Under the pieces are notes generated by a model that searched no databases, had not been told where the DNA came from, and saw only the letters and a program-made list of their open reading frames with translations. From Leptotrichia sp. oral taxon 212 (GTDB lineage: Bacteria > Fusobacteriota > Fusobacteriia > Fusobacteriales > Leptotrichiaceae), in contig NZ_CP012410.1 of the NCBI RefSeq assembly GCF_001274535.1, forward strand, positions 2,143,126 to 2,207,125: a stretch of 64,000 nucleotides of DNA, written 5' to 3'. Shown here one piece after another: positions 5,899 to 60,904 of this stretch. Position 1 is the first letter of the stretch; every line of letters starts with the position of its first letter. Both the position numbers and the translations under genes were made by a program.

Positions 5899-7089
5899 AT
5901 GAAATATAATTTTGATGAAATAATAGACAGAAAAAATAACCATGCTACAAAATACAACGAATTAATAAAAAAATTCGGAGTGGATGATGTCATTCCCCTA
6001 TGGATTGCAGATATGGATTTCAGGACTGCCGAACCTGTTGTCAATGCCGTAAGGAAGAAAGCTGAACATGGTATTTTTGGATACGTGTACCGTCCTGATG
6101 AATATTTTGAGTCTTTCATAAACTGGCAGAAAAAAAGATTTGGCTGGAAACCAAAAAAAGAACTCCTAAGCTTCAGCATCGGTATCGTCCCGGCTTTAGG
6201 AGCATTAGTAAGACAATTTTCTGAAAAAGGGGATAAGATACTTATTCAGACACCTGTCTATTCTGAATTTTATGACATCAATCTTGATAATGAAAGAGTT
6301 GTTATCGAAAACAGGTTCATTGAAAAAGACGGTGTTTACTCCCTTGATTTAAAGGATCTTGAGGAAAAACTGAAGGAACATCCAAAACTTCTTATTTTCT
6401 GTAATCCCCAAAATCCGATCGGTCACGTATGGACTTATGAGGAACTTAAATCAATTGGAGATTTATGCGTAAAATACAATGTTCCTGTTATTTCAGATGA
6501 AATCCATGCTGACCTTACTTTGTGGGATAACAAGCATATTCCTATGGCAAGTGTATCAGAAGAAATCAGACAGAACACCATTACATGTACTTCTACCGGA
6601 AAAGCCTTCAATGTGGCAGGACTTCAATGTGCCACTATTGTATTTAATAATCCCGCAGAAAAGGCAAAATTTGATAAATTCTGGAAAGATCTGGAAGTAC
6701 ATAGAAACAATCCTTTCAATCTTGTCGCAACAATTGCCGCATACAACGAAGGGGATGAATATCTTGTTCAGCTGAAAAAATATCTTGAAGATAATATTAT
6801 GTTTGTCTACAATTACTGTAAGGACAACATTCCACAGATTAAACCGAACATTCCACAGGCAACATATCTTGTCTGGCTTGACTGCAGACAGCTATGTAAG
6901 GATTTTGGATTCAGCCAGGCTGATCTGGAAGAATTTATCCTAAAAAAGGCAAAGCTTGGACTTAATCCGGGAAGATCCTTCCAGAAAGATCTTGAAGGAT
7001 TCATGAGAATAAACACTGCCTGTCCACGTTCAGTACTTGAAAAAGCTTTAAAACAGCTGGAAAATGCAGTAAAAGACCTTTCAAAATAA
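5899..7089 (+). CDS. MalY/PatB-family PLP-dependent aminotransferase / C-S lyase
   Basis: A 396-residue fold-type I PLP enzyme. 'VIPLWIADMDFRTAEPVV' near the N-terminus, 'FCNPQNPIGHVWT', 'VISDEIHADLTL' and the PLP lysine in 'TSTGKAFNVAGLQ' are the pattern of the MalY/PatB group. These enzymes usually act as cystathionine beta-lyases or cysteine desulfhydrases, making pyruvate, ammonia and a thiol or sulfide; this is known of the family, not shown here. Oral anaerobes use such enzymes to release hydrogen sulfide. It lies 20 bases after manA, with a weak ribosome site (GAAAGGATAATTCC). Confidence 0.9.
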   Translation: MKYNFDEIIDRKNNHATKYNELIKKFGVDDVIPLWIADMDFRTAEPVVNAVRKKAEHGIFGYVYRPDEYFESFINWQKKRFGWKPKKELLSFSIGIVPALGALVRQFSEKGDKILIQTPVYSEFYDINLDNERVVIENRFIEKDGVYSLDLKDLEEKLKEHPKLLIFCNPQNPIGHVWTYEELKSIGDLCVKYNVPVISDEIHADLTLWDNKHIPMASVSEEIRQNTITCTSTGKAFNVAGLQCATIVFNNPAEKAKFDKFWKDLEVHRNNPFNLVATIAAYNEGDEYLVQLKKYLEDNIMFVYNYCKDNIPQIKPNIPQATYLVWLDCRQLCKDFGFSQADLEEFILKKAKLGLNPGRSFQKDLEGFMRINTACPRSVLEKALKQLENAVKDLSK

Positions 7090-45500: not shown

Positions 45501-46211
45501 TTTTTTCTTTGCACTTATTTCAAAATCAACAAATCCCTGTGCCAACGGACCTCTGTCATAGTCAAATCCCCATATACCAAAAAGACCCCTGTCACTGTCT
45601 GAACCAATATAAGGAAACAGAGTAGCTCTTTGACTTTCAGGTTTCAGAGATACTACATAGTATGGAAATTTAAACCATGTTTTTCCTCCGGCAACTACGC
45701 TAATGTCCTTAGCAACCACTTTTCTGTTTGGATAAATCTGCAGTTCCCTTGTATTTATTTTATAATTTGGATTTTCGTAAGGACTCGTTGTGAACCATCC
45801 ATTTTTTATTGTTATTTTGCTAGGATATTCACTAAGAGTTTCTTCCCCGCCATAACGCAGTTTCAAATTGCTGTCATAGCTCTCTGAACCTAGTATTTTT
45901 GCCTTTCTTGTATCCATATCAAAAATAACTTCATTTGCTTTTATTGTCTGTGTACCTTGGTTAAAAAGAACATTTCCGTAAGCAAAAAGAATATTTTTTT
46001 TTGCAAGTTTTTTCAGATTATCTGATTTTATTGAAATATCTCCGTATTTCAAAAGTACTCCATCAGTTGCAGAAATAGATTCATTTTCTATGTCTATTAC
46101 TGATTTTTCAGTTTCAAGATCTATAACTGTTTCAGCTTTAGATTCCCTTATCTTTGAAAAAAACAGCACACAAAACAAAAAACTGAATAATATTTTATAT
46201 TTTATTTTCAT
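42525..46211 (-). CDS. lptD: LptD/OstA-like outer-membrane LPS assembly protein, very large
   Basis: A 1228-residue exported protein. It has a signal peptide (about 1-26, 'ILFSFLFCVLFFSKIRESKA'), then an OstA/LptA-like beta-jellyroll (about 35-150, 'DGVLLKYGDISIKSDNLKKL', 'ANEVIFDMDTRKAKI'). A long beta-barrel region follows, with alternating aromatic strands ending 'PEKNVQFNYSGGRPSFGAGL'. LptD places lipopolysaccharide in the outer leaflet. E. coli LptD has 784 residues, so this is about 440 longer, the extra being spread through the barrel and loops. I saw no obvious cysteine pairs of the E. coli type. It heads a unit with thrS. Confidence 0.82.
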   Translation of the reverse strand: MKIKYKILFSFLFCVLFFSKIRESKAETVIDLETEKSVIDIENESISATDGVLLKYGDISIKSDNLKKLAKKNILFAYGNVLFNQGTQTIKANEVIFDMDTRKAKILGSESYDSNLKLRYGGEETLSEYPSKITIKNGWFTTSPYENPNYKINTRELQIYPNRKVVAKDISVVAGGKTWFKFPYYVVSLKPESQRATLFPYIGSDSDRGLFGIWGFDYDRGPLAQGFVDFEISAKKKLALKFSNDYRFGSHNSGNIFVNRVVVPLGNRTREWDFKWTHNVVNTPKKEKSERSFYNLGYGIWNLTYKNMTTNLMRATDGVLLKDDYTSYVNLYKKIGFYDFTINQELGKNGEFNLDYYWTQNKEALRELTKINDYIVDRDEIDPRRTDVDLYKSLKYTNGNSDVAIKVDNEEFIDINPGYVGDLNSYRKKESYSIDFRGPKIKFDYVDSNKDEYGEILNLRERDDADFHSLEDSNRWVQKLAYDKRKEWGLTFGNYYPFRRSDFFGYEPKTLAQNLTNNFYFGVVTKQIDIRKKEYEYDFTRDNPNFNSMFLNSTTDDNSRIYKVYEDAEIIRRAKRIVYEKYRSQKINIGNDKIELPLRNSYVAFNFGFENRDYSDAYVPEFYRGRKIEDTSSRTGYKIAKDAAGGEIKQKPSMNIATLDTKLFTTIFDNTARTDNKYDVKVTNEVNLSLQKTDANGAMYNGIDIIEIPSNAFGLKNDFNVHIGNVNFNYIFTGKDDRHFSDNWLKNRYVRNYFKADIANRRFVSFDFESNEEYEFKNFKTSKNLNREVQYGYTSNNEDNFLYRYSDRNKEIYPFDITMGWDQKTYKELERERTFSMNFNEWGIEYINLRTKRNDIFGTSATFGVPDLKLKTETHKIGFVYDTKKMRNKKFESDHYFRINYGFGKKTYRDLNNTPLVDSDDRYSHGSDYTTISLLYRYENNAKPKYEKDLKKENGSSETVVTSRGQDIIRDSNTQGFSISNSNRNVLDNIEINSDDRLFLSNEEEQAYKSYVEEENYRQNKFNLNDFNSKLQELRKGKKYFQVGLDLEIDGSNSLYSTELKGMDRLNDLTFKMEAGYLEKFFVAYRYVMERPDRIYRRLPGRKSEYNFRKHEFETKYMFGEDPDKPWWVGAKLQYVKDGAPNSSNPEIFESSSAATRVNKLTLGLATLSHRFENVEWEIGAGVKWDKPDNKKLGYYPVITLKFGITPFPEKNVQFNYSGGRPSFGAGL

Positions 46212-46449: not shown

Positions 46450-46501
46450 TTGACATCCTAATTATATATAGAATAATCAGAAAATATTTTCAGGATGTCA
46501 A
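46450..46501 (+). promoter_or_regulatory. Promoter region with long-arm inverted repeat before the amidase gene
   Basis: TTGACATCCT (46450-46459) and AGGATGTCAA (46492-46501) form a perfect 10-base inverted repeat with 32 bases between. The left arm contains a -35-like TTGACA; the right arm contains the first ATG of the amidase frame. The -10 is weak (AATAAT at 16 bases). It could be a regulator site or an mRNA hairpin hiding the start. Confidence 0.5.
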
Positions 46502-47295
46502 AATTTCAAATCAAAAACGAAAGGAGATATAGTTACTATATTTTAGCAAACTATGTAAAAAAAATTATGTTAAATTTATTTTTTAAAAGAGCAATAATAG
46601 TTGCCCTTTCAGTAATTGTATTAAATGTACCTTCAAAACTTCATGCCGAAGCTTTAAATCCCGGAAATAACAAAGTGTGTATAGATCCCGGACATCAGGC
46701 TAAAGGAAATAAAGGACTGGAAGAAGTTGCTCCCGGTTCTTCAACAAAAAAAATAAAGGTCGCGGATGGAACAGCAGGAGTGGTTACAAAAAAACCTGAA
46801 TACCAGCTTACTCTGGAAGTAGGACTTAAATTAAGAGACAGATTGAAAAGCAAAGGATATCCTGTTTTTATGATAAGGGAAACAAACAATGTAAATATAA
46901 GCAATAAGGAAAGAGCTATCATGACAAACAAGGAAGGATGTGCAGTATACATAAGATTACATGCGGACGGTTCTTCAAATAGAAGCCTTAACGGAGTATC
47001 TGTCCTGACTTCATCCCCTAAAAATCCTCATACTAAAAATGTCCAAAAATCAAGTGACAAATTTTCAAAAGATGTATTGTCTGAATTTGTAAAGGCAACA
47101 GGTGCAAAAAATAGAGGAGTTTCATACCGTGATGACCTGACTGGAACAAACTGGTCCACTGTTACCAATACTTTAATTGAAATGGGATTCATGTCAAATC
47201 CTGAAGAAGACAGAAAAATGGCTTCAGATGAATATCAGAATAAAATGGTCACAGGAATTGTAAACGGAATTGAAAAATATTTCAGAGAAAAATAA
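46495..47295 (+). CDS. Exported N-acetylmuramoyl-L-alanine amidase (Amidase_3)
   Basis: A zinc amidase that cuts the bond between MurNAc and the stem peptide. Motifs: 'VCIDPGHQ', the glutamate in 'YQLTLEVGLKLRDRLKSKGY', 'YIRLHADGSSN' and 'NTLIEMGFMSNPEED'. A signal peptide follows Met25 ('LFFKRAIIVALSVIVLNVPSKLHAEA'). The start is uncertain: the first ATG (46495) has no ribosome site and lies in an inverted repeat, the ATG at 46567 gives a normal signal peptide but has no good site, and an AAAGGAG near 46520 has no in-frame ATG/GTG/TTG at proper spacing. It is a possible supplier for the MurNAc locus downstream. Confidence 0.88.
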   Translation: MSKFQIKNERRYSYYILANYVKKIMLNLFFKRAIIVALSVIVLNVPSKLHAEALNPGNNKVCIDPGHQAKGNKGLEEVAPGSSTKKIKVADGTAGVVTKKPEYQLTLEVGLKLRDRLKSKGYPVFMIRETNNVNISNKERAIMTNKEGCAVYIRLHADGSSNRSLNGVSVLTSSPKNPHTKNVQKSSDKFSKDVLSEFVKATGAKNRGVSYRDDLTGTNWSTVTNTLIEMGFMSNPEEDRKMASDEYQNKMVTGIVNGIEKYFREK

Positions 47296-48681: not shown

Positions 48682-49761
48682 TTAATCAGAATTATTATTA
48701 CTTACAAATTCAAACTGTTTTACTATACTGATATAATCCAATAATTCCATATCTTTTTCAATAATCTTAGAGACAACAGATCTTTTTTCGTCTGTACCAA
48801 GATTTTTCAGTGCTATTTCCAGTTCTCCCTCATATCTTAAATATTTACTGTTACTTATAAGGATATCACCTTTTTTTATAGGAATATCTGATGATATTTT
48901 TTCTATGTCAATACTGTATCCCGCAAGTTCTTCCTTTATATATTCACAGAAATCCTTTCTGGTTTCTCCTATATTTCCACCTGCAGTGGCTCTTACGACA
49001 TGTTCAGAAGAATCTATCCTGTCCTGAAAAACCTTATCTGTAAGTATATCATGTTCATTTCTTAAAGGAATTGCTCCTTTACTGAAATAACCAAATTCCT
49101 TCCAGTTTTCATCTGATAAATTTATATCTCCTACCAGAATTACATCTGTACTTAGGGATAGCAGGTCAAGACACGATGTAAGAAACCTCATATTCCGATG
49201 TTCCTCCACTGTGGGAAGTCCTTCATATATAGGTCCTCTAAGTTCGTCTCCCTTTACAAAAGCCATTGTTCTTATCCCATATTTTTTATATTTCAAATTC
49301 TGTTCCAGCAAATATTTTTTTGAAATACCTGTAAACCTTTTCGGATAAAAATTATGCAGGCTTAACATATTGGAAAATTTAGCATGTTTCAGTTTCATAT
49401 ACTCCAGTTCTTCCTCTATCAATGTACTTGCATTAAGAACTATTTTATTTTTTTCTGAAAGATTTAAAATTTCATCAACAGTAAATCCGTCGTCAATACG
49501 AAGATATACATTTTCTGAATTTAAATTTGCAATATCTTTAGTTGTGCTGTTTATATCGACTATAAGATTTAAATTATGTTCAGTACAGAGCCTGATTATT
49601 TTTTCAAGCTCCGACTGTTTATCAACTTTTTCTTCAGATATATTAAGGGATGTAAAAACATACTTTGCCCCTGATTTTACAGCCTTTTCTATAATTTTTT
49701 CATTTTTTTCTTTTCCTGTGCTTAAATAAACTGAAAATCCTGTTTCAAATTTTTTTTTCAT
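48682..49761 (-). CDS. MupG-like 6-phospho-N-acetylmuramidase (DUF871), distal copy
   Basis: A 359-residue protein of the DUF871/MupG family: a TIM barrel (about 1-235) with 'GFSVYLSTGKEKNEKIIEKA', 'LHNFYPKRFTGISKKYL' and 'GLPTVEEHR', plus a C-terminal cyclophilin-like domain ('KKGDILISNSKYLRYEGELEI'). MupG of Staphylococcus aureus splits MurNAc-6-phosphate-GlcNAc. It is the last gene of the MurP-esterase-hydrolase-MupG block. It is clearly divergent from the copy at 53978-55069, so the two may prefer different sugars. Confidence 0.82.
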   Translation of the reverse strand: MKKKFETGFSVYLSTGKEKNEKIIEKAVKSGAKYVFTSLNISEEKVDKQSELEKIIRLCTEHNLNLIVDINSTTKDIANLNSENVYLRIDDGFTVDEILNLSEKNKIVLNASTLIEEELEYMKLKHAKFSNMLSLHNFYPKRFTGISKKYLLEQNLKYKKYGIRTMAFVKGDELRGPIYEGLPTVEEHRNMRFLTSCLDLLSLSTDVILVGDINLSDENWKEFGYFSKGAIPLRNEHDILTDKVFQDRIDSSEHVVRATAGGNIGETRKDFCEYIKEELAGYSIDIEKISSDIPIKKGDILISNSKYLRYEGELEIALKNLGTDEKRSVVSKIIEKDMELLDYISIVKQFEFVSNNNSD

Positions 49762-49830
49762 ATTTTCTTTCCTATCCTGTCTATATTGATGCCTTCAATC
49801 TGATTTATATGTATCCTTCAATTTACAATT

Positions 49831-51636
49831 TTATTTTCCTGAACTCATTTTTTCCAGTTCTTCCTTCATCTGAACATACTCAGAAGGCAATTTTCCTGTT
49901 CTTTTGTTTAAAAGATTTATAAGTTCAACTGTATCCCTTATGTCTGCAGAATTTTTATAATTAGAATCTGTTTTTATAAGATTGAATTTTCCTTTTATCA
50001 TATCTTCAAGAATACTGTTCATTCTTAAATTAGTATCTTTTTTACTGTTCATATTAGAAAAAGCATCTATTATTATGGAGCTTATTACACCGTAATTAGT
50101 AGTATAATAGTGATTTCCATAAAAATCATTAGGTTTTTTTGATGGATCTATAACCCTTGAATTTTTTGCGTTTGTCAGGAGAACAATGACCAGATTCTGT
50201 GAAGGTTCTATTACAGTAAGTGTTCCTGTCCATCCTGTATGCCCTACCGTTTCTCTCGAAGCCAGCCCTGAAAATGCCCATTTGTAAATGAAATCTCCCT
50301 GTCTTCTCCATCCTAAACCGTAACTGGCATTTATATCCTTAGGTTTTATAAAATTGTCCAGTGTTGTTTTATCAAAAAATTTAATATCATCATAGCCACC
50401 TTCATTTATAATCACCTGTGCAAGTTTTGCCACTTCGTAGGCATTTGAAAACAGACCTGCATGACCTGACACTCCCTGCATGGAATAATAGGCCTTCTCA
50501 TCATGCACTTCTCCCTGAATAGTATATTTTCTAGCATTTATAAAATCTATTGTATTATCCCTTGTATTACCATTTAATTCAGTTGCTGCCGTCTCATTTT
50601 TACTGACACCATTCTTTAAAGGATTAAACATAGTTCTTTTTAAATTCAGTTTATTATAGAAGTTTTCCTTCATATAAGTATCTAAGTCCTGTGAAGTAAC
50701 CTTTTCTATTATTAGTCCTAAAAGCATATAATCCACATCTGAGTATTTCGTAGAAGTTTTAGGCTCATATGCCAGAGGAGTTTTCATAATGGCATCCTTT
50801 ACTTTTTCCTTACCTATTGCATATAAATCATTTTTCCCGTTAGGAATTCCGTCATCCTTATCATATTTATCGTTAAAATATTGCGGATCAGGTGGAAATC
50901 CTGCCTGATGCTTTAAAAGATCGCTTACTTGAACTTTTTCCTTCCCGTTTCCTTTAAATTCCGGATAAAACTTATGTACATAGTCATCCAGATTCAGTTT
51001 CTTTTCTGATACAAGTTTCATTATTGCATAATTTACAGAATACATTTTCGTATTGCTGGCCAGATCGTATACAGTATTATCAGTGACTTTAACTTTATCC
51101 TTTATTTCAGTACCGTCCTGATTGTAGTTGTTTACATATCCATAGCTTGAAAGCAATTCAAGGTTTCCGTCCTTTATTACCGCTATCTGGGCTGAAGGAA
51201 GCCCTGCCTTAACTTCGGCCTTTATAAATTCATCAAGAAATTTTACTGTTTCCTCATTATAACTTTTCTGTTTCTTATTTTCAGTAACTACAGGATAAGG
51301 AATCTTTACATTCAGTTTTCCCTCCAGACTGCTGACCTGAAAAATATTCTTATCATTTTTTGTTACTTTTGAAATATCTATTTTTTTCGTTCCTTTTCCC
51401 TTCAGGTCATCAGTTTTCAGTCTGATTCCATTTATATAAATATCCGCATTCTTAAATTCATCATATTCCAGAACTATATATCCCTGATTTTTGAAAGCCT
51501 TGAATTCAAACATTTCATTTGTAAGTATGGAATCATCAAAATCTTCCTTGCTTACAGGAAAAGTTTTTTCTATCTGATAGGAATACATATTCAGAAATAT
51601 AAGCATATTAAACAGAATAAGCAATATTTTTTTCAT
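49831..51636 (-). CDS. Exported serine hydrolase of the beta-lactamase fold (AmiE/YbbE-like)
   Basis: A 601-residue protein with a signal peptide (about 1-20). A beta-sandwich-like N-terminal module follows (about 20-120), then a class C beta-lactamase-type domain with 'YDLASNTKMYSVNYAI' (SxxK), 'YSDVDYMLLG' (YxD variant of YxN) and 'ETVGHTGWTGTLTVIE' (HTG). Bacillus keeps a related protein (AmiE/YbbE) in its MurNAc recovery operon, where it removes peptides from muropeptides. I start at the ATG at 51636, 8 bases from GGAGG, not the GTG inside the ribosome site. It lies 24 bases after the esterase. Confidence 0.85.
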   Translation of the reverse strand: MKKILLILFNMLIFLNMYSYQIEKTFPVSKEDFDDSILTNEMFEFKAFKNQGYIVLEYDEFKNADIYINGIRLKTDDLKGKGTKKIDISKVTKNDKNIFQVSSLEGKLNVKIPYPVVTENKKQKSYNEETVKFLDEFIKAEVKAGLPSAQIAVIKDGNLELLSSYGYVNNYNQDGTEIKDKVKVTDNTVYDLASNTKMYSVNYAIMKLVSEKKLNLDDYVHKFYPEFKGNGKEKVQVSDLLKHQAGFPPDPQYFNDKYDKDDGIPNGKNDLYAIGKEKVKDAIMKTPLAYEPKTSTKYSDVDYMLLGLIIEKVTSQDLDTYMKENFYNKLNLKRTMFNPLKNGVSKNETAATELNGNTRDNTIDFINARKYTIQGEVHDEKAYYSMQGVSGHAGLFSNAYEVAKLAQVIINEGGYDDIKFFDKTTLDNFIKPKDINASYGLGWRRQGDFIYKWAFSGLASRETVGHTGWTGTLTVIEPSQNLVIVLLTNAKNSRVIDPSKKPNDFYGNHYYTTNYGVISSIIIDAFSNMNSKKDTNLRMNSILEDMIKGKFNLIKTDSNYKNSADIRDTVELINLLNKRTGKLPSEYVQMKEELEKMSSGK

Positions 51637-51660
51637 AAGATGCACCTCCTCATTTATAAA

Positions 51661-52449
51661 CTATTTCTGATTAAACATCTGATTGAAAAAATAAGTCTGG
51701 CTTTTTATGGAATTATCCCAGTATTCCCATGTATGAGCTCCCGGTCTTTCAGTGTATTCATGTCCTATATTCAGCTCAAGAAGTTTCTTATGCAGTTCCC
51801 TGTTAGGTTCTATAAAGAAATCATCTACACCGCAGTCTATTATTATGTGGGACTTTGTTCCTATCAGCTTATGGGCTATATCTTTTATGTTATATTCATT
51901 CCAGCTGGAATTAAGAACTTTTTCTATCCCCCAGTTTCCCTTATACTGTTCAGGATTCATTCCACCGCTCATACTTCCAATATTTCCAAACACATCCTGA
52001 TTTTTAACGCCTATATAGAAAGCTCCAAAACCTCCCATGCTTAAACCTGTTATTGCCCTGTGTTCCTTAGCTTTATAAGTAGAAAAATTTGAATCAATAT
52101 AATCAACTAATTCCTTTGATACAAAAGTATAATATTTTGAATCCTTCTTTACAGGACTGTCAACATACCAGCTGTCATAATTTCCATCCGGAGAAACATA
52201 AATGACATTATACTGGTCTGCCAGTTCCTTTATCGAAGTCTTGTCAGGATAGTTTTTATTACTTCCTGACCAGCCATGTAAAACATAGATTGTATTGTAC
52301 TTTTTATTTGCAGAATATCCGTCAGGCAGGATTACTGTCACTGGAATATCCTTTTTCATTGATTTACTGTGAACTTTTATATCCTTTTCAGCAAAAGAAA
52401 ATCCTAAAAATGAACATATAAACAATAAAATTGCTAATATTTTTTTCAT
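51661..52449 (-). CDS. Exported esterase, alpha/beta-hydrolase (esterase D/EstA type)
   Basis: A 262-residue protein with a signal peptide ending near residue 20 ('FICSFLGFSFA'). It has the esterase-D-type catalytic set: 'YVLHGWSGSNKNY' (oxyanion), 'ITGLSMGGFGAFY' (Ser), 'IIIDCGVDDFFIEPN' (Asp) and 'ERPGAHTWEYWD' (His). It lies 5 bases after murP, so it is tightly coupled to MurNAc uptake. A role in removing O-acetyl groups from MurNAc is attractive but is inference only. Confidence 0.88.
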   Translation of the reverse strand: MKKILAILLFICSFLGFSFAEKDIKVHSKSMKKDIPVTVILPDGYSANKKYNTIYVLHGWSGSNKNYPDKTSIKELADQYNVIYVSPDGNYDSWYVDSPVKKDSKYYTFVSKELVDYIDSNFSTYKAKEHRAITGLSMGGFGAFYIGVKNQDVFGNIGSMSGGMNPEQYKGNWGIEKVLNSSWNEYNIKDIAHKLIGTKSHIIIDCGVDDFFIEPNRELHKKLLELNIGHEYTERPGAHTWEYWDNSIKSQTYFFNQMFNQK

Positions 52450-52454
52450 TTATA

Positions 52455-53873
52455 TCACTCTCCGTATATGTCTTCTATTCTATCATCGTCCACTCCAAAG
52501 AAATAAGTTAAAACAAATCCTCCAACATATGCTCCTAGCATTGCCATTATATAATAAGGCCATGCTCCAAAATCTTTCAATATTAATAATCCAAGTAATC
52601 CAGAAGCTCCTTGAGATACAGTTCCTATATGAAACAAGACTGTCAAAATTCCTCCGAATCCTGCTCCTAAACATGCCGTAATAAATGGTTTTCCTAAAGG
52701 TAGTGTTACAGCATACATCAGTGGTTCTCCTATTCCCAATATCCCTACAGTAATAGAATCCCTTACCATTGTTTTAAGTTTCTGGCTTTTAGTTTTCACA
52801 TAAATTGCAATTCCGGCACCTACCTGTCCTCCACCTGCCATCATAAGTATAGGAAGCAGATAGTTAATCCCTTGAGTAGGTCCTGTAGGTTCATTAAGTA
52901 AAGTATGTATAGGAGTTAATGCCTGATGAAGTCCTACTGAAACTAAAGGAAGGAATCCAGCCGCCAGAATGTATCCTCCTAATATTCCTAATTTATTATA
53001 TGCAAAATCAAGAATATTAAATATTCCGGCTGTTATAACAGTTCCTAAAGGCTGAATTATTATCAGAGCTATAAACACACCTATTATTAAAGTTAAAAGC
53101 GGAGTAAAAAATGTATCAAGCATTACCGGAACTATCTTTCTTACCTTTTTTTCCAGATATGCCACTATTATACCCATAAATAATGAAGCAAGTAATCCTC
53201 CCATTCCAGGTGCAAAAGGTTTACCTGTGAAAGGAAGTATAACCGCGCTTTTATCTTCAACTTTAAGAAGAAGAGGGAGTGCAGGATTTGCAACAAAAAT
53301 TGATCCCATAATTCCACCTAGTACTGCAGTTCCACCAAATTCCTTTGCAGCATTCATTCCTACGTATATTGCAAGATATCCAAACATAGCAAATCCAATA
53401 CTTCTTATGGCCGCAAACCACCATACTGTACTGTAAGCACTTTTAGTTGAAACATTTATAGCATTTGTCAATCCCATTACAAGACCTGCCGCTATTATTC
53501 CAGGCAGCAGAGGAACAAATATATTTGCTATTTTCTGAAGGAATCTCTGAACAGGACCGTTATGTTTCTGCTTATTGGCTTTTTTATTTTCCTTTGCCAC
53601 ATCTTCTACATTATTGTCTGAAAATCCTAAAGGCATTCCTGTAAGCTTTGAAAATTCATCACCTACTGAATTTACCTTTCCAGGTCCCAAAACAATCTGA
53701 AGCGTTTCAGCTTCCACAACATTAAGCACTCCGTCAACCTTTTTCAGTTTTTCCACATCTGCATCTTCTCTGACTTTAACTCTAAGTCTTGTCATGCACA
53801 CTGCATTTGAAATGATATTCTCTTTTCCACCTAGAATATCATAGATTTCTTTCGCTGTTCTTTTTGCATCCAT
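52455..53873 (-). CDS. murP: PTS IIBC transporter, MurNAc-specific type (MurP-like)
   Basis: A 472-residue glucose/sucrose-superfamily PTS protein. The IIB domain (1-80) has the phosphorylated cysteine in 'ISNAVCMTRLRVKV'. The IIC domain (about 105-465) has about ten helices with 'GLHQALTPIHTLLNEPTG' and 'GILGIGEPLMYAVTLPLGKP'. There is no IIA domain, as in E. coli MurP, which borrows a glucose-type IIA; none is in this window. Neighbouring mupG, murQ and murR support MurNAc, while a sucrose or trehalose type is the alternative from sequence alone. Ribosome site AAGGAG. Confidence 0.82.
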   Translation of the reverse strand: MDAKRTAKEIYDILGGKENIISNAVCMTRLRVKVREDADVEKLKKVDGVLNVVEAETLQIVLGPGKVNSVGDEFSKLTGMPLGFSDNNVEDVAKENKKANKQKHNGPVQRFLQKIANIFVPLLPGIIAAGLVMGLTNAINVSTKSAYSTVWWFAAIRSIGFAMFGYLAIYVGMNAAKEFGGTAVLGGIMGSIFVANPALPLLLKVEDKSAVILPFTGKPFAPGMGGLLASLFMGIIVAYLEKKVRKIVPVMLDTFFTPLLTLIIGVFIALIIIQPLGTVITAGIFNILDFAYNKLGILGGYILAAGFLPLVSVGLHQALTPIHTLLNEPTGPTQGINYLLPILMMAGGGQVGAGIAIYVKTKSQKLKTMVRDSITVGILGIGEPLMYAVTLPLGKPFITACLGAGFGGILTVLFHIGTVSQGASGLLGLLILKDFGAWPYYIMAMLGAYVGGFVLTYFFGVDDDRIEDIYGE

Positions 53874-53927
53874 AATTCTTCTTCTCCTTTTCTATATATT
53901 TTATTTTTATATTCATTTATAAGCTGA

Positions 53928-53972
53928 AAAGGGTGATTAAATCCTGACCAAAATCACAATCCATCACCCTTT
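53928..53972 (-). terminator. Stem-loop between the proximal mupG and murP
   Basis: AAAGGGTGAT (minus strand, from 53972) and ATCACCCTTT (to 53928) form a perfect 10-base stem. It starts just after the mupG stop and is followed by only a few Ts. It may end or dampen the upstream transcript so that murP and later genes are expressed at a different level. Confidence 0.65.
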
Positions 53973-53977
53973 ATTTC

Positions 53978-55069
53978 TTATTTTTCTACAAAAGAAAATT
54001 TTTGCCAAGGTTTAATATAATCTATTAAAAATATTTCTTCTTCGGATATTCTTCCTACAACATTTGATTTCCCTGTATTTCTCATTTCCTTTTTAGCTAT
54101 CATCAGTTCACCGGCATAATGACCGAAATCACTGCTTTCTATAATTATGTCACCCTTTCTTATTACTTCAGGTGCATTGAAAAGTTTAAATTCATGACCT
54201 TTATACTTTACCCTGCTGTTTGATGAACGTATAAGGTTTTCAGGGGCGTCTCCCCTGCTATAATGAAATTCCTCCAGAACAATTTTTTTCTCTATTTCCG
54301 GAATATTTTCTTCAAGACTGGCAGAAAAGCTTACCATGTCCTTACGGACTTTTTTAAACTCTTCAAGTTCTTCGTCAGTTGGATAGCAGTTGGAAATAAT
54401 AATGTCATCTATCATTTCCAAAGCGACAAAATGCTTAAACTGTACTATCATCGGTAAATCCCTGTGCATTTCCAGTGTCGGCAATCCCTGTGTTACCGGC
54501 CATGGTCCAAAAGTATTTTTAGCCTGAGAAGTTATAAAAGCCGCTGTTCTTAATCCATATTTTGCAAAGTTTTCAGTACACTTTTTAAAAAAATCCAGTC
54601 CCAGTCCCGTATAAATATGCGGATAAAAATTATGGCATCCTATCAGATTATCCCTGTTAGGACGATAATCCATAATTGTATCAATATAATGAGTAATATT
54701 GCTCATATTTATTTCTATTTTCAGATTTTCCTTGTTAAATGTCATTATACTTTCCTGCAGACCTGTAAATCCAATATCCAGTCTGACTCCGTCAGCATTC
54801 ATTTCCTTGAAAAATGACAAGTTGTCATAACTGATGCCTAAGTCATTAAAAACCCTAGGATTCACATCAAGAATAATTTCAAATCCTTTTTCTTTTGCAT
54901 GCCGATTTATCCTTCTGAACTTTTCCAGAATAACTTCCCTGCTTTCATTTGCAGACAGCAGACAGCTGAATATACGGCTAAATCCTGCCTCTCCTGCTTT
55001 ATCGATATAGTCCAGTACTTCCTTTTCAGCTGTTTTTTCAGGATAAATTGAAATTCCTAATTTTCCCAT
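53978..55069 (-). CDS. MupG-like 6-phospho-N-acetylmuramidase (DUF871), proximal copy
   Basis: A 363-residue DUF871/MupG protein: 'LGISIYPEKTAEKEVLDYID', 'DGVRLDIGFTGLQ', 'IGCHNFYPHIYTGLGLDFF', 'QGLPTLEMHRD', and a C-terminal domain with 'RKGDIIIESSDFGHYAGELM'. Its start follows the IIC stop by one base, so it is translated with the cellobiose-class PTS. Its product should therefore act on what that PTS imports. The same PTS-IIC/DUF871 pairing is common in firmicutes. Confidence 0.85.
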   Translation of the reverse strand: MGKLGISIYPEKTAEKEVLDYIDKAGEAGFSRIFSCLLSANESREVILEKFRRINRHAKEKGFEIILDVNPRVFNDLGISYDNLSFFKEMNADGVRLDIGFTGLQESIMTFNKENLKIEINMSNITHYIDTIMDYRPNRDNLIGCHNFYPHIYTGLGLDFFKKCTENFAKYGLRTAAFITSQAKNTFGPWPVTQGLPTLEMHRDLPMIVQFKHFVALEMIDDIIISNCYPTDEELEEFKKVRKDMVSFSASLEENIPEIEKKIVLEEFHYSRGDAPENLIRSSNSRVKYKGHEFKLFNAPEVIRKGDIIIESSDFGHYAGELMIAKKEMRNTGKSNVVGRISEEEIFLIDYIKPWQKFSFVEK

Positions 55070-55070
55070 A

Positions 55071-56426
55071 TTACGCTACTTTCCCAGCTTCAGCTTCTGC
55101 ATGTTCTTCTGCTAGTAACTTTTTCTCATATACATTAAAGAATGGATAATAAATTATAATAGAAATCACAATTAATATAACATTCAAAATCAATGCTCTG
55201 AAATCTCCATTTGTCGCTAAAAATGCTCCTATCGGTCCAGGTAACGTCCAAGGTGGCGTTGATGTAACACGATTTACTAGTCCTGCAGCCATTGCAAAAT
55301 AGGCAATAGTTGCATTAACTACAGGCACTATAATAAATGGAGGTAACAAAGTAGGATTTAGTACAATAGGCGCTCCAAATATAATTGGCTCGTTTATATT
55401 AAATATTGATGGTAGAATAGCTGCTTTTCCTAATGTCTTACCATAAGCTGATTTTGATTTAAAAAGCAATAATAAAGCAAAACCTATTGTTGTTCCAGAA
55501 CCACCAATCCATACAAACCATTGGTATAGAGGCTCAGCTGCGATATGTGGAACAGGTTGTCCATTGGCAAGAGCTGTTGCATTCTGTTCCAGCAACATAA
55601 GCCATAAAGGTCTTACCACTGATCCAACTATGGAATCTCCATGAATTCCAAAGGACCAGAAAAATGTAATCATAAAAACAATAAGAATTACTGAGAACCA
55701 CGAATCACTAAACTTTAAAATTGGTTTTATGACTGAACCAATTATGTCATGCAAATCAATTTTCAACCAATAAGTTAGTATTGTCAATGTAAATATAATT
55801 ATTGCAGCAGGGGTCAATGCTTCAAAAGAACGTGCAACTGACTCTGGCACTGCTTCAGGCATTCTTATTTTAAATCCTGTTGTTGTTGTAAGACGATAAA
55901 CCTCAACGGCAAATATTGCAACTATTATTCCAACGAATAACCCTGCTGATCCAAGCTTTGACATCTGCATTACATACCCAAGATCTTCCTGAAGAAGCTG
56001 TGAGCCTTTTGTTCCTTCTTCCACAATTATCTGCACTGCCTGTCCATTAATAGTCTGATTTATAACTTCCACTGGATTAATCATTTTTGGCATAATTGTT
56101 AACAGGAATGCACAAACTGAAAGTATTGCTCCTGTAATTCCATCAAGTTTATAAGATTTTGCAAGACTATAACCTATTCCCATAACTGCATAAAGTCCCA
56201 TAATGAACATAGTCATACGATAAGGCAACAACATTTGCACTGCATATTTTTTAGCTAGTACTGATATTCCCCATTCTTTTGGGAATGGCGGAAATGCTAA
56301 AATCAAAAAAACTGAACCTACTATAATCAAAGGTAATGTTGATACGATTCCATCACGTATTGCCCTTAAATGTCTTTGTTCAGATATTTTTGCCATTTTC
56401 ATTGAAAGTTGTTCTAAAACTGCCAT
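55071..56426 (-). CDS. PTS lactose/cellobiose-family IIC permease
   Basis: A 451-residue permease with about ten helices. Family signatures: 'LFVGIIVAIFAVEVYRLTT', 'WIGGSGTTIGFALLLLF', 'PSIFNINEPIIFGAPIVLNP' and 'PWTLPGPIGAFLATNGD'. It uses the separate IIA and IIB encoded just upstream and overlaps functionally with the mupG that follows by one base. Substrate: beta-linked disaccharide by family; a peptidoglycan disaccharide is suggested by the location. Confidence 0.93.
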   Translation of the reverse strand: MAVLEQLSMKMAKISEQRHLRAIRDGIVSTLPLIIVGSVFLILAFPPFPKEWGISVLAKKYAVQMLLPYRMTMFIMGLYAVMGIGYSLAKSYKLDGITGAILSVCAFLLTIMPKMINPVEVINQTINGQAVQIIVEEGTKGSQLLQEDLGYVMQMSKLGSAGLFVGIIVAIFAVEVYRLTTTTGFKIRMPEAVPESVARSFEALTPAAIIIFTLTILTYWLKIDLHDIIGSVIKPILKFSDSWFSVILIVFMITFFWSFGIHGDSIVGSVVRPLWLMLLEQNATALANGQPVPHIAAEPLYQWFVWIGGSGTTIGFALLLLFKSKSAYGKTLGKAAILPSIFNINEPIIFGAPIVLNPTLLPPFIIVPVVNATIAYFAMAAGLVNRVTSTPPWTLPGPIGAFLATNGDFRALILNVILIVISIIIYYPFFNVYEKKLLAEEHAEAEAGKVA

Positions 56427-56520
56427 AATTTACTTCCTTTCTTATCCTAATTTTATTTTTTATAAACCTATTTTGTCATACTTATTTAAAACTAAAAACT
56501 ATTATAGAATTTCTAAAATT

Positions 56521-56829
56521 TTACTGTCCTAGCAATTCCTGAATCTGTTTTAACAGTTTCGGTCCTCCTAATGGACTGTATCCCTGAGGTGCAATCATAA
56601 CGCAGGGAACTCCGGCTTCCTTTGCATGAACACTTAATGTATCAAATCTGTGTCTTATCTGAGGAGCAACCATGGCTATGTCATATCCTCCCTTTATTTC
56701 ATCTTCAAACTGCTGAGTACTCACAGCTTTTACCTCGATTTCTATTCCTTTTGAAACAGCTTCCTTTTCCAGCGCCTTTATCGCAACTGCACTGGACATT
56801 CCCAATGAGCATACAAATAATACTTTCAT
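56521..56829 (-). CDS. PTS lactose/cellobiose-family IIB
   Basis: A 102-residue IIB with the phosphorylated cysteine in 'KVLFVCSLGMSSAVAIKALE' (Cys7) and the C-terminal 'YDIAMVAPQIRHRFD'. It is intact, unlike the remnant at 2270-2461. Together with the IIA at 57269 and the IIC at 55071 it forms a complete transporter. It has a strong ribosome site (AGGAGGTAAAA), and 94 bases separate it from IIC, with no hairpin I recognise. Confidence 0.94.
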   Translation of the reverse strand: MKVLFVCSLGMSSAVAIKALEKEAVSKGIEIEVKAVSTQQFEDEIKGGYDIAMVAPQIRHRFDTLSVHAKEAGVPCVMIAPQGYSPLGGPKLLKQIQELLGQ

Positions 56830-56874
56830 TTTTACCTCCTGATTTCTATTTTATTTAACTTTTTCTATCTGAAA

Positions 56875-57240
56875 TTATATCGTTTTTTTCCTGAACATCC
56901 AGAAATATGTTATCAGTCCAAATGCTATACCCCAGATTATATACTGCTGCCAGAACTTTTTACAGAATCCCCTTTTGGAATCAATAAAGAATCTTGTCCA
57001 GACAAATCCAAAACTTGTAATAAATGTATTTCCTAAAAGTATGGAAAAATTCATATTTACTCCAAAGAACAGTAACAAAACAGGAAATACTATTGTTCCG
57101 ACTAATGAGCTTGCCAGTATTACCAAAGCTGATTTTATACTGAAGGAATTTACTTTCTCTTCCCTGCCCTCTTTTTCCGTTTCCTTTTTTTCCTCTTTTT
57201 TTATTTCTTCAATATGTTGCGGTTTTATTTTTCTTACCAT
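56875..57240 (-). CDS. Small membrane protein of unknown function within the PTS operon
   Basis: A 121-residue protein. The N-terminal 35 residues are extremely charged ('HIEEIKKEEKKETEKEGREE'). Two hydrophobic segments follow (about 38-63 and 92-114). I recognise no family. It lies between IIA and IIB, where PTS operons normally carry no such gene, and its reading frame and ribosome site (AAGGGG, 6 bases before the ATG at 57240) look real. An upstream ATG adds 16 residues, but the site favours this one. Confidence 0.65.
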   Translation of the reverse strand: MVRKIKPQHIEEIKKEEKKETEKEGREEKVNSFSIKSALVILASSLVGTIVFPVLLLFFGVNMNFSILLGNTFITSFGFVWTRFFIDSKRGFCKKFWQQYIIWGIAFGLITYFWMFRKKTI

Positions 57241-57268
57241 GCATTTCCCCTTCTGTAAATTTCTATAT

Positions 57269-57598
57269 CTATTTTTTTTCCAGTTCATCTATTCTTCTGT
57301 ACATTCTTATCATTCCTTCAATTAAAGTTTTCGCTTCAATTGCTGTCATAAGATGATCCTGAGAATGAACAAACAGTACGGAAGGTGTTATTGCTTCTCC
57401 GCTTACCTCAGCCTGAATTATTTCAGTCTGAACATTGTGTGCTGACAGCAGTGCTTCATCTGCTTCCTTCAGCAACTTTTCAGCTTCTTCAAAATTTCCG
57501 TTTTCAGCTTCCCTTAAGGCTTCATAAGCCAGTCCTTTTGCAGTTCCTGCGCTATTTACAATTTCAAATACAACCAGTTCCATTTTTTCCTTATCCAT
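57269..57598 (-). CDS. PTS lactose/cellobiose-family IIA
   Basis: A 109-residue helical IIA with the phosphorylated histidine in 'VLFVHSQDHLMTAIEAK' and 'IVNSAGTAKGLAYEALREA' at the N-terminus. It receives phosphate from HPr and passes it to the IIB at 56521. It lies 38 bases after the GH4 gene on the same strand. Confidence 0.94.
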   Translation of the reverse strand: MDKEKMELVVFEIVNSAGTAKGLAYEALREAENGNFEEAEKLLKEADEALLSAHNVQTEIIQAEVSGEAITPSVLFVHSQDHLMTAIEAKTLIEGMIRMYRRIDELEKK

Positions 57599-57636
57599 AT
57601 TTTGCTTTTACCTCTTTCCATTTATCTGCTTTTTTA

Positions 57637-58989
57637 TTATTTTTTGTATTTTTCCCTGTTTTCATAGTAATCTTTAAACTGCGACAAATATTTCTCATGT
57701 GCGTCAAGCAGTTCATTTAAAACCTTTCTTCCGACACCTGTTCCAGGAACTAAAGGATTTGTAGCAAATGCCTGCAATGCAGTATAATAATTTCCCGTAA
57801 CTGCGGCTTCCACCGTCAGTTCTTCCATTGCCTTCATAATCTGTATATAACCTCTCTGTCCGGCATTTGGAAACTTTCCGAATGTTATCGGTTTAGGCCC
57901 GTCGGCTGTAATGTATGAAGAAATTTCAACTGCAGAATTATATGGTAAATCTGCAATCGCACCTTTATTTCTTGTATTAACTGCCATTATTATCCCCTTA
58001 TCATTGTAAATTGCACTGATAAGTTCACAGGCCGCATCTGAATAATAGGCTCCTCCCCTCTGTTCCAGCTGTTTCGGTTTTTCCTTCAGATTTTCATCCT
58101 TATATAGCTCAAACAGTTCCTCCTCAACTTTTTTAACAATTTCTCCCCTTGTTCCTTTTTCCCTGTATGACTTCAGTCCTTCCGCAAGCATCTCATCCTG
58201 TAAATAATAATATCTGTGATAGTCGCAAGGTAACATTCCCAAGTTTTTTATCTGGTCATAGTCATAGTTTATACTTACAATATTTTTTACCCCGAGATTT
58301 TCCTTATCCTGTCTTTTATCCCATAAATCTGCGGTAAGTTCATTTCCTTTTCTATCCCATACCCTGTACCATACAAAATGGTTCAATCCTGCAAACTGGA
58401 ACTTGAACTCGCTCATATCCTTTTCATAAAGGCTTGCACAGTCCATCTGTGTATGAACAGGAATATTACATAAACCTACAACCTTATCAAAATTTCCGTA
58501 ATTCAGAACAGCTTCTGTGACTATTCCTGCTGGATTTGTAAAGTTTATGAGCCATGCATCTGGAGCCAGTTCCTTTATATCCTTTACTATATCAAGTATT
58601 ACAGGGATTGTACGAAATGCCTTGAACATACCTCCTGCACCATTTGTTTCCTGTCCAAGAAGGCCATTTTCAAAGGGAATTCTTTCATCCTTTATTCTTG
58701 CATCAAGCTGTCCAACCCGAAACTGTGTCGTTACAAAATCTGCATTTTTAATAGCTTCCCTTCTGTCCAGTGTCAAATAAACTTTACAGTCTATTCCTGC
58801 CTTTTCCACCATTCTTTTAGCAAGATTTCCAACTATTTCCAGCTTCTCTCTTCCTTCTTCAATGTCTACAAGCCATATTTCTCTTACAGGAAGTTCCTTT
58901 ATCCTTTTAATAAAACCTTCTATAAGTTCAGGAGTATAGCTGGATCCGCCCCCAATTGTTACAATTTTAATTCCTTCTTTCTTTCCCAT
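57637..58989 (-). CDS. 6-phospho-glycosidase, glycoside hydrolase family 4 (LicH/CelF-like)
   Basis: A 450-residue NAD- and metal-dependent GH4 enzyme: N-terminal 'IVTIGGGSSYTPELIEGFI' (Rossmann), 'VDIEEGREKLEI', 'ETNGAGGMFKAFRTIPVILD', 'VGLCNIPVHTQ' (cysteine and histidine of the metal site) and 'FAGLNHFVWYRVWDRKG'. The CN.P.H form indicates the 6-phospho-beta-glucosidase branch. Being set between murR and the PTS IIA, it probably cleaves the phosphorylated disaccharide delivered by this PTS. A GlcNAc- or MurNAc-6-phosphate glycoside is the speculative alternative to cellobiose-phosphate. Confidence 0.92.
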   Translation of the reverse strand: MGKKEGIKIVTIGGGSSYTPELIEGFIKRIKELPVREIWLVDIEEGREKLEIVGNLAKRMVEKAGIDCKVYLTLDRREAIKNADFVTTQFRVGQLDARIKDERIPFENGLLGQETNGAGGMFKAFRTIPVILDIVKDIKELAPDAWLINFTNPAGIVTEAVLNYGNFDKVVGLCNIPVHTQMDCASLYEKDMSEFKFQFAGLNHFVWYRVWDRKGNELTADLWDKRQDKENLGVKNIVSINYDYDQIKNLGMLPCDYHRYYYLQDEMLAEGLKSYREKGTRGEIVKKVEEELFELYKDENLKEKPKQLEQRGGAYYSDAACELISAIYNDKGIIMAVNTRNKGAIADLPYNSAVEISSYITADGPKPITFGKFPNAGQRGYIQIMKAMEELTVEAAVTGNYYTALQAFATNPLVPGTGVGRKVLNELLDAHEKYLSQFKDYYENREKYKK

Positions 58990-59080
58990 TTTTCTTCCTT
59001 TCCCGTCATTATATTATGCCTTTTTCCAATACTTAAATTTATCTTCTGAAAATGTGGCTACAAACTTTTCAAAATTACTT

Positions 59081-59923
59081 TTAAAGCTGTACTTTATTTA
59101 TTTTCGTCTTTTTTATCTTATCAGAAACATAGTCATAATTTTTATTATAATATGTAAAATATATTACATCTATCAAGTTCAGCATAGATATTCTCGAATA
59201 AATCGCCGCACTTCTTACAAGTGCCTCCCTGGAAGTTACGTAGAGATTATATTTACATTTCTTTACAAGCTTATTATTTCCGTATCCTGTTATTGAAACT
59301 GTATTGATTTCCTTATCCTGAAGTATTTCAGCAATATCTATTATTTCCTTTGTCAGTCCCGAATAAGACACCAGTATCGCCAAATGCTTCCTGTCACTGC
59401 TTATCGCCTGTACACGCTGCAGATCAGGACCTTCAAAAGTATTTACAACTTTTCCTGCTCTCATGAACTTGTACTGGGCATCAAGACAGACAATGTGCGA
59501 AGCTCCTATTCCATAAAAATCTATCACTTCGCTTTCAGTTATTAAATCTGCTACAATATTTATCATTTCAGTTTCCTGCAGGAGTTTTGTCTCCTTTAGC
59601 GAACTTATGCTCAGCTTTGTCAGCTTTTCGATGACAGTTTTTGTATCATCCCTTTTATCAATATCTCCAGTATCAAAATTGATTTCTTCCTTTTCCATAT
59701 TGATAACTTCTTCCAGCATTTTCATTTTAAATTCCTGAAATCCGCTAAATCCTATTTTCTGGCACATTCTTGTAACGCCTGCATTACTTGTGTACGTTTC
59801 TGAAGAAATGATATTTGTATCAAGTTCACGTATATTTCTGAAATTTTTTATTATATACTTGGCAATGTATTCTTCATTTTCAGTAAAATCCTTATTTTCC
59901 CTAAGTTTTATCAGAATACTCAT
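59081..59923 (-). CDS. murR: MurR/RpiR-family transcriptional regulator
   Basis: A 280-residue regulator with an N-terminal RpiR helix-turn-helix ('SSETYTSNAGVTRMCQKIGFSGFQEFKMKM') and a C-terminal SIS sugar-phosphate domain (about 120-250, 'VIDFYGIGASHIVCLDAQ', 'LAILVSYSGLTKEIIDIAE'). The likely signal is MurNAc-6-phosphate, the substrate of MurQ, whose gene overlaps it by 23 bases. It probably binds the palindromic site before murQ. A role as repressor is inferred from the family. Confidence 0.9.
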   Translation of the reverse strand: MSILIKLRENKDFTENEEYIAKYIIKNFRNIRELDTNIISSETYTSNAGVTRMCQKIGFSGFQEFKMKMLEEVINMEKEEINFDTGDIDKRDDTKTVIEKLTKLSISSLKETKLLQETEMINIVADLITESEVIDFYGIGASHIVCLDAQYKFMRAGKVVNTFEGPDLQRVQAISSDRKHLAILVSYSGLTKEIIDIAEILQDKEINTVSITGYGNNKLVKKCKYNLYVTSREALVRSAAIYSRISMLNLIDVIYFTYYNKNYDYVSDKIKKTKINKVQL

Positions 59924-60812
59924 GTATTAACCTCGCCACGTTATTATCGTATTTTTCAAGCTTTTCTGTTGCAGTTTTCTTGTCAATATTTAACAGTATC
60001 ATTGCTATTGCGGACTTTACATCATTTGAAGCCTCTTCCAGAACTTTTGCCGTCTTCTCGTAATCACTGTCTGTAGTTTTCATTATGATTCTTTTTGCTC
60101 TTTCAACTAATTTCTGATTTGAAGTTTTAACATCTACCATATATCCTGAAAATACTTTTCCTATTTTTATCATAATTGCAGTTGAAATCATATTAAGTAT
60201 CATTTTCTGTGCTGTCCCGGCCTTCATTCTTGTGGATCCTGTAACAATTTCAGGTCCTACGATAACTTCGACAGGATACTGACTTATTCCTGATAAATCA
60301 GAATTTTTAGAACATGTTATGCTTCCTGTAACTGCCCCTATACTGTTAGCATATTCTATAGCCCCCATAACATAAGGAGTTCTTCCTGATGCGGCCAGTC
60401 CTATGACTGCATCATTTTTAGTAAGGTTTATATTTATAAGGTCTTCTTTTCCCAGTTCCCTGCTATCTTCGGCATTTTCCTTTGCCCTAAATATTGCCTC
60501 ATTTCCTCCGGCTATTATTCCCTGCACCTTTTCATGGGAAACACCATATGTCGGAGGACACTCTGAAGCGTCCAGTATTCCAAGCCTTCCTGATGTACCG
60601 GCTCCTATATATATTATTCTTGTATCCTTTGTGTAATTTGATAATATGGCATCTATCAGTCTGGAAATACTTTTCAGTTCCTTTTCTACACAGAATGCAA
60701 CTTTCTTATCTTCCTCGTTTATCCTTCTTATAATTTCAAAACTGTCCTGCAGCTCAATATCTTTGCTGTTTGGATTATTTTCTTCCGTAGAAAGTTTGTT
60801 GAGATCAATCAT
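59901..60812 (-). CDS. murQ: N-acetylmuramic acid 6-phosphate etherase
   Basis: A 303-residue SIS-domain enzyme that splits MurNAc-6-phosphate into GlcNAc-6-phosphate and D-lactate. Seen: 'IIYIGAGTSGRLGILDASECPPTYG', 'GIIAGGNEAIFRAKENAED', 'VIGLAASGRTPYVMGAIEYA' and 'IVGPEIVTGSTRMKAGTAQKMILNMIST'. It is first in the locus and overlaps murR by 23 bases. Its presence is the strongest evidence that the whole locus works on peptidoglycan sugars. Confidence 0.97.
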   Translation of the reverse strand: MIDLNKLSTEENNPNSKDIELQDSFEIIRRINEEDKKVAFCVEKELKSISRLIDAILSNYTKDTRIIYIGAGTSGRLGILDASECPPTYGVSHEKVQGIIAGGNEAIFRAKENAEDSRELGKEDLININLTKNDAVIGLAASGRTPYVMGAIEYANSIGAVTGSITCSKNSDLSGISQYPVEVIVGPEIVTGSTRMKAGTAQKMILNMISTAIMIKIGKVFSGYMVDVKTSNQKLVERAKRIIMKTTDSDYEKTAKVLEEASNDVKSAIAMILLNIDKKTATEKLEKYDNNVARLIHEYSDKT

Positions 60813-60871: not shown

Positions 60872-60904
60872 GAAAACTATTTTCAGAAACTGAAAAATAT
60901 TTTC
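60872..60904 (-). promoter_or_regulatory. RpiR-type palindromic operator upstream of murQ
   Basis: GAAAACTATTTTC and GAAAAATATTTTC flank a central TTTTCAG / CTGAAAA palindrome. The minus strand reads as two GAAAAT-type half-site pairs about 60-90 bases before the murQ ATG. A TATAAT box lies between it and the gene (near 60835), with no clear -35. Binding by MurR is inferred. Confidence 0.6.

Follow-up and report, generated by a model that had tools for sequence, protein, structure and literature searches.

A putative muro-sugar scavenging locus with two unrelated phosphotransferase systems in Leptotrichia

MurP is the phosphotransferase system (PTS) established for the import of N-acetylmuramic acid (MurNAc). 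Why, then, should a bacterium keep a second PTS in the middle of its MurNAc genes? The question is raised by a locus at positions 48682–60812 of the window, a 64-kb stretch of the single 2.44 Mb contig that makes up the genome of Leptotrichia sp. oral taxon 212 (Leptotrichiaceae, the family of Leptotrichia). Its twelve genes all lie on the minus strand, spaced from a slight overlap up to 104 bp, in the transcription order murQ, murR, GH4 (glycoside hydrolase family 4), IIA, TMx, IIB, IIC, mupG1, murP-like IIBC, esterase, PBP4B/YfeW-type and mupG2. MupG1 and MupG2 belong to family GH170 and are encoded by the only two GH170 genes of the host genome. We read the locus, with moderate confidence, as a MurR-controlled cluster for muro-sugar scavenging and recycling with two PTSs of unrelated superfamilies, MurP with MupG2 and a lactose/chitobiose-class (lac/chb) PTS with MupG1. 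Judged by comparative genomics, the latter pair very probably supplies MurQ with a saccharide that contains MurNAc.

If the lac/chb-class PTS and its GH170 enzyme are a second, unrelated MurNAc PTS, they would provide a wall-recycling route for MurQ bacteria without a recognisable MurP. Clostridioides difficile, other clostridia and Erysipelotrichia would gain such a route, and the role of operon-borne anmK in Gram-positives would become testable. Scavenging of wall fragments is also relevant to cross-feeding in the communities of mouth and gut. GH170 has so far been assigned only MurNAc-6-phosphate (MurNAc-6P)–N-acetylglucosamine (GlcNAc), by biochemistry, and chitobiose phosphate, by genetics.

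Linkage of the second importer to murQ

A scan with MupG1 alone as query, and thus without selection for murQ, returned 51 loci, from which 42 non-redundant loci of the MupG1 clade were scored (16 from Leptotrichiaceae and 26 from Firmicutes/Actinobacteria). The lac/chb-class PTS and mupG1 were linked to murQ in 32 of the 42, namely 11/16 in Leptotrichiaceae and 21/26 in Firmicutes/Actinobacteria; 17 of these 21 loci had no murP within the fetched flanks. The linkage is kept across Fusobacteriota, Clostridia, Erysipelotrichia, Aerococcaceae and Collinsella. In a quick tree with approximate likelihood ratio support (SH-aLRT) and no bootstrap, from which Staphylococcus aureus MupG and Lacticaseibacillus paracasei ChbE were left out, the MupG1 clade comprised 49 rows with a support of 100, and 36 of the 49 were linked to murQ and IIC. 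MupG2 grouped with the MupG2 proteins of murQ-murR-murP-esterase operons.

The partner genes recur as well. Of the 26 Firmicutes/Actinobacteria loci, 21 have a TMx homologue within the operon, 20 a NagK-like BadF kinase, 13 anmK and only one GH4; anmK is present in 14 of all 42 clade loci, and three AnmKs were verified with NF007142 (537–623 bits, cut-off 435). C. difficile has the order anmK-TMx-IIB-IIC-mupG1-murQ-kinase-murR (L107), and its genes for MurQ and AnmK (J5O10_15565 and 15590, close tags) were significantly changed in a published transcriptome (PMC11633334). Such clostridial loci carry an orthologous, murQ-linked version of the second importer, with MupG1 ~70% identical to that of the window; unlike the window, they usually lack MurP, and many contain anmK and the kinase. 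This second type of importer is under-described; many gut bacteria, C. difficile among them, have it together with these partner genes. Searches of the open literature, which leaves most subscription journals outside coverage, turned up no account of a lac/chb-class PTS in partnership with MurQ or AnmK, nor of the clostridial murQ-IIA-anmK-TMx-IIB-IIC-mupG1-BadF-murR operon.

MurP-type IIBC was then sought in 22 genomes with a murQ/PTS/mupG1 locus, its presence being judged by identity and some of the genomes being metagenome-assembled genomes (MAGs). It was absent from the isolate genome of Anaeromonas frigoriresistens (G118), and a Holdemania MAG (G108) had only a 52-residue fragment match. 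In twelve others of the 22 locus-bearing genomes the best IIBC reached 28–34% identity, compared with 41–43% for murQ-adjacent clostridial MurPs. In these genomes, which have no full-length or close MurP, MurQ is evidently supplied by the lactose/cellobiose-class (lac/cel) PTS. In A. frigoriresistens, positions 7062–15345 of L141 read murQ-IIB-IIC-IIA-mupG1-kinase-anmK-(TMx-like)-GntR-like-nagA-like, which looks like a full muro-sugar operon; the genome itself has no MurP-type IIBC.

In the first-pass annotation, the known systems were credited with one PTS and at most one MupG. By gene content, however, the combination of two PTSs and two GH170s is not unique: in Clostridium tertium (L100), IIA-TMx-IIB-IIC is present twice in tandem and lies, with mupG1 and a kinase, near murQ-murP-esterase-like-mupG2-murR, and L102 has a similar arrangement. 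Up to six GH170 paralogues per genome were noted earlier by Kluj et al., who expected other functions among them (PMC6262408). Two PTSs with one MupG are found in Leptotrichia.

The two modules and their gene products

Gene order within Leptotrichiaceae indicates that the locus is two joined modules. Module A, murQ-murR-murP-esterase-PBP4B-mupG2, is a classic MurNAc operon; module B, GH4-IIA-TMx-IIB-IIC-mupG1, is placed in the window exactly between murR and murP. The two occupy separate sites in G084 and G085 of the related genus g8, which carry murQ-murR-murP-esterase-PBP4B-mupG2 at one and IIA-TMx-IIB-IIC-mupG1 at the other. Genomes of genus g11 have murQ-murR-murP-esterase-mupG2, and in at least one of them PBP4B could be recognised as well. 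The usual order in genus g6, to which Leptotrichia hongkongensis belongs, is murQ-GH4-IIA-IIB-IIC-mupG1-murP, and at most of these loci murR, esterase, PBP4B and mupG2 are not nearby; 9 of 13 g6 genomes have both a MurQ over the cut-off and a GH170, and the other 4 have neither. A further order, murQ-murR-IIA-anmK-TMx-IIB-IIC-GH1-mupG1-murP-esterase, is seen in G065. The gene-order comparison proposed for testing two routes speaks for them in the murQ-linked loci, and the separate sites in genus g8 count against them. The coupling of one MupG to IIC and the terminal place of the other in the MurP block are borne out, since mupG1 follows IIC and mupG2 closes the module A order.

The twelve open reading frames (ORFs) and most first-pass names held on inspection. 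The murQ product (59901–60812, minus strand, as for all features below; 303 aa) scores 372 bits against the MurNAc-6-phosphate etherase model TIGR00274 (cut-off 302). The next gene (59081–59923, 280 aa) encodes an RpiR-family regulator, scoring at most 119 bits with RpiR-family models and below every equivalog cut-off; the name MurR agrees with its 59–83% identity to the murR found beside murQ in other Leptotrichiaceae. Both GH170 proteins, MupG1 (53978–55069, 363 aa; PF19200 305 bits, PF05913 127 bits), a member of the murQ-/PTS-linked clade, and MupG2 (48682–49761, 359 aa; 196 and 77 bits), a paralogue of the murQ-murP-linked type, exceed the cut-offs of the two models, in line with their earlier naming as DUF871/MupG proteins. 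Both paralogues keep residues that are invariant or nearly so in the three GH170 groups compared, among them R96, D98, H146, N147, E200, H202, R203, R272 and D274 (MupG1 numbering). A GLPT/GLCT motif at MupG1 residue 197 was considered as a marker of MurNAc specificity. MupG2 shares its P with the main clade linked to murQ, but the marker was rejected because C stands there in the murQ-linked outliers L120, L121 and L128, and P in several Tissierella-type loci that lack murQ.

The second PTS is complete in IIA (57269–57598, 109 aa; PF02255 118 bits), IIB (56521–56829, 102 aa; PF02302 44.5 bits) and IIC (55071–56426, 451 aa), all of the lactose/cellobiose class. IIC scores 382 bits, above the cut-off of the lac/cel family model TIGR00410 (236) but below that of the cellobiose equivalog TIGR00359 (434), so that the earlier label "cellobiose" stands for the superfamily only. 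The murP-like IIBC (52455–53873, 472 aa; PF02378, PF00367), a glucose-superfamily protein with IIB and IIC domains and without IIA, likewise falls below the cut-offs of the MurP model NF007152 (292 bits, 516) and the sucrose IIBC model (304 bits, 559). It has murQ-linked orthologues and adjoins murQ modules across Leptotrichiaceae; the name MurP is given here for this position beside murQ in many genomes. One glucose-type IIA elsewhere in the host genome could serve it.

Between IIA and IIB lies TMx, a gene that the first-pass annotation did not describe (56875–57240, 121 aa; the ORF opens at 57288 and 57240 is the likely start). Its product, of ~120 residues, has three predicted membrane helices and no match over the cut-off in Pfam and NCBIfam scans; a low-confidence model built from the single sequence (pLDDT 65, pTM 0.34) places helices at 51–74, 79–103 and 109–136. 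An orphan second TMx gene is present in the host genome at G000:C1:635320-635730 (L163:9321-9731), directly after obgE-miaA-PTS IIA-like, the site that holds the IIA-TMx-IIB-IIC-mupG1 block in genus g8 genomes. This suggests that the block was moved or lost there and that the orphan is a left-over of the cassette. IIC and GH4 are 92–95% identical to most Leptotrichia orthologues and the other module B proteins roughly 80–89%; the higher identities may hint that IIC and GH4 were transferred recently. In L. hongkongensis (L058 and L091), IIC is split into two ORFs, and the second PTS may be inactive there, or the split may be a sequence error.

The GH4 enzyme (57637–58989, 450 aa; PF02056, PF11975, CNIP and GLNH motifs), correctly recognised earlier as a phospho-glycosidase, is of the 6-phospho-beta-glucosidase type: its closest solved structures are the beta-type 5c3m and 1s6y (~560 bits), and alpha-type 6-phospho-glucosidases score 150–190 bits. 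Its orthologue in Leptotrichia murQ loci is 90–95% identical. In the GH4 mechanism, the −1 sugar is oxidised at C3 by hydride abstraction, for which a free 3-OH is needed; MurNAc carries a lactyl ether at C3 and hence has none. Because of this mechanism, a role of GH4 on MurNAc-6P glycosides was rejected, and GH4 must serve substrates ending in glucose (Glc)-, glucosamine (GlcN)- or GlcNAc-6P. Of the two enzymes proposed earlier for cleaving the imported disaccharides, GH4 is ruled out for MurNAc-6P-GlcNAc on these mechanistic grounds. GH1 is found in 8 and GH4 in 10 of 18 loci of this type, never together, a mutual exclusion that points to one shared job.

Two exported proteins complete module A. 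The esterase (51661–52449, 262 aa, apparent signal peptide; PF00756 130 bits) had been recognised as such and is kept with murP in several Leptotrichiaceae. The C6 hydroxyl of MurNAc, which a PTS must phosphorylate, is often O-acetylated in the wall; we speculate that the protein is an O-acetyl-esterase, a role that would make sense in this light. The 604-aa protein at 49831–51645, by contrast, had been called "AmiE-like": it passes the PBP4B (YfeW) model NF002968 (463 bits, cut-off 385) and has a beta-lactamase fold, the comparison with AmiE having covered superfamily PF00144. It could trim peptides, by analogy with the place of yfeW as last gene of the Escherichia coli murQP operon (PMC5061867).

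Module A with mupG2 matches the S. aureus mupG-murQ-murP-murR cluster (PMC6262408), in which MurQ, a MurP-type IIBC, MurR and the GH170 MupG are encoded together; that cluster has one PTS and one GH170 and, unlike the window, no GH4, lac/cel PTS, TMx, esterase or PBP4B. The E. coli murQP-yfeW operon likewise unites murQ and murP with the gene of a PBP4B protein under MurR control, but has no GH170, no second PTS, a divergent murR and another gene order (PMC5061867).

The candidate operator and the module junction

Upstream of a promoter-like sequence before murQ lies a candidate MurR operator, TTTTCAGTTTCTGAAAA (60880–60896, minus strand), and all twelve genes are downstream of it. This TTTTCA-N5-TGAAAA palindrome is the sole TTTTCA-N(3-6)-TGAAAA in the window. 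The same palindrome stands 74–85 bp from murQ in four other Leptotrichiaceae loci (L082, L084, L085 and L086), and only a handful occur elsewhere in 2 Mb of fetched loci. Generic promoter and terminator scans gave chance-level counts. At the junction of the modules, the 104-bp mupG1-murP gap contains a strong hairpin (53874–53985, minus strand; −25.2 kcal/mol, z −5.1) with a weak T tail; by eye, the matching gaps of Leptotrichia show no such structure. The hairpin could act as a partial terminator or mark a processing site, and because of it a single transcript is not certain.

Substrates, rival readings and neighbouring genes

We propose a plausible pathway for the locus. MurP would import MurNAc and MurNAc-terminated saccharides, and the resulting MurNAc-6P-GlcNAc would be cut by MupG2, as S. 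aureus MupG does (PMC6262408). IIA-IIB-IIC with TMx would take up a second pool, beta-1,4 amino-sugar disaccharides from peptidoglycan, and phosphorylate the non-reducing sugar; the 6-phospho-disaccharide would then pass to MupG1, or to GH4 if the phosphorylated sugar is GlcN(Ac) or Glc. MurQ would convert MurNAc-6P to GlcNAc-6P and D-lactate, and GlcNAc-6P would go on to NagA, of which the host genome has two genes; any of its four ROK kinases could take freed GlcNAc. The exported esterase and PBP4B would trim fragments before import. The host genome has no AnmK, no GH3 and no BadF sugar kinase, the sole PF01869 hit over the cut-off being a 2-hydroxyacyl-CoA dehydratase-type activator beside such a dehydratase gene. 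MurNAc-6P therefore most likely comes straight from a PTS, which favours MurNAc-GlcNAc as a shared substrate in the host. An anhydroMurNAc route in this organism was rejected, given the lack of AnmK and GH3. The two import routes meeting at MurQ that were envisaged at the outset are thus backed by the murQ linkage and the MurP-less G118, while their substrates stay inferred: MurNAc-GlcNAc, GlcNAc-(anhydro)MurNAc and chitobiose are candidates for module B.

Chitobiose is on this list because L. paracasei handles N,N'-diacetylchitobiose by means of a GH170 and a cellobiose-type PTS: ChbE and the chb PTS are required for growth on this sugar (PMC12791066), so that a GH170 with this PTS class does not by itself imply MurNAc. 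Module B could on these grounds be an importer of chitobiose or GlcNAc-oligosaccharides with a ChbE-like GH170 and GH4, placed beside murQ since both pathways end in GlcNAc-6P, and many GH170-PTS loci without murQ would fit, as would the g8 genomes, where module B is not linked to murQ. We consider this unlikely in view of the 32 murQ-linked clade loci, of anmK in 14 loci, an enzyme useless in chitobiose breakdown, and of G118, where this PTS is left to supply MurQ. The L. paracasei chbRCDE/chbBA cluster moreover includes the DUF3284 protein ChbD and, as described, no MurQ or MurR; no DUF3284 match was found in a Pfam scan of ten locus proteins, murQ and murR having been scanned with NCBIfam only. 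Still less can be said for an ordinary cellobiose/beta-glucoside PTS lying in a mur locus by chance. The lac/cel family membership of IIA, IIB and IIC and the likeness of GH4 to 6-phospho-beta-glucosidases would suit it, as would Bacillus coagulans CELO2, a PTS of the cellobiose type whose genes are co-transcribed with one for a DUF871 (GH170) protein and which was read as cellobiose uptake (PMC6271610). No murQ was reported in that five-gene operon, however, and the breadth of the murQ linkage, together with the score below the cellobiose IIC equivalog cut-off, makes this reading very improbable.

The anmK and BadF kinase genes inside the Firmicutes operons suggest another substrate. The PTS could import GlcNAc-MurNAc and/or GlcNAc-1,6-anhydroMurNAc and phosphorylate the GlcNAc, as a PTS substitute for the AmpG-NagZ route; MupG1, GH4 or GH1 would free (anhydro)MurNAc, and AnmK (for the anhydro form) or the BadF kinase would phosphorylate it for MurQ. 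The interchange of GH1 and GH4 6-phospho-beta-glycosidases agrees with this, and 6 of 16 anmK-bearing genomes lack any GH3 (NagZ), which leaves MupG1 or GH1/GH4 as candidates to free anhydroMurNAc. Yet anmK could serve anhydroMurNAc from another route, and in the Leptotrichia host, which lacks AnmK and a BadF sugar kinase, the freed sugar would be a dead end unless an ROK kinase accepts it; we regard this import as improbable. A bolder form would make module B the first PTS for GlcNAc-MurNAc/GlcNAc-anhydroMurNAc, with GlcNAc phosphorylated, a 6-phospho-glycosidase (MupG1, GH4 or GH1, plus AnmK in Firmicutes) replacing AmpG-NagZ, and MurP/MupG2 acting on MurNAc-GlcNAc, so that both polarities are salvaged; we put it forward tentatively, as a doubtful possibility.

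Several observations weigh against delivery of MurNAc saccharides to MurQ by the lac/chb-class PTS and MupG1. Besides the chitobiose precedent, MupG1 is closer in sequence to murQ-less GH170s than to MupG2. In genus g8, module B stands away from murQ, and no MurR-like palindrome precedes its separate IIA-TMx-IIB-IIC-mupG1 block. The hairpin in the mupG1-murP gap may uncouple the two modules. Of our preferred reading, the gene content, linkage, phylogeny and operator candidate are shown, as is the presence of nagA, ROK kinases and a glucose-type IIA in the genome; the substrates, the co-regulation and the roles of TMx, the esterase and PBP4B are inferred.

Beside the locus, an exported N-acetylmuramoyl-L-alanine amidase-like gene lies at 46495–47295 on the plus strand, and a gene at 42525–46211 on the minus strand encodes a protein of 1228 aa with a weak LptA-type match.

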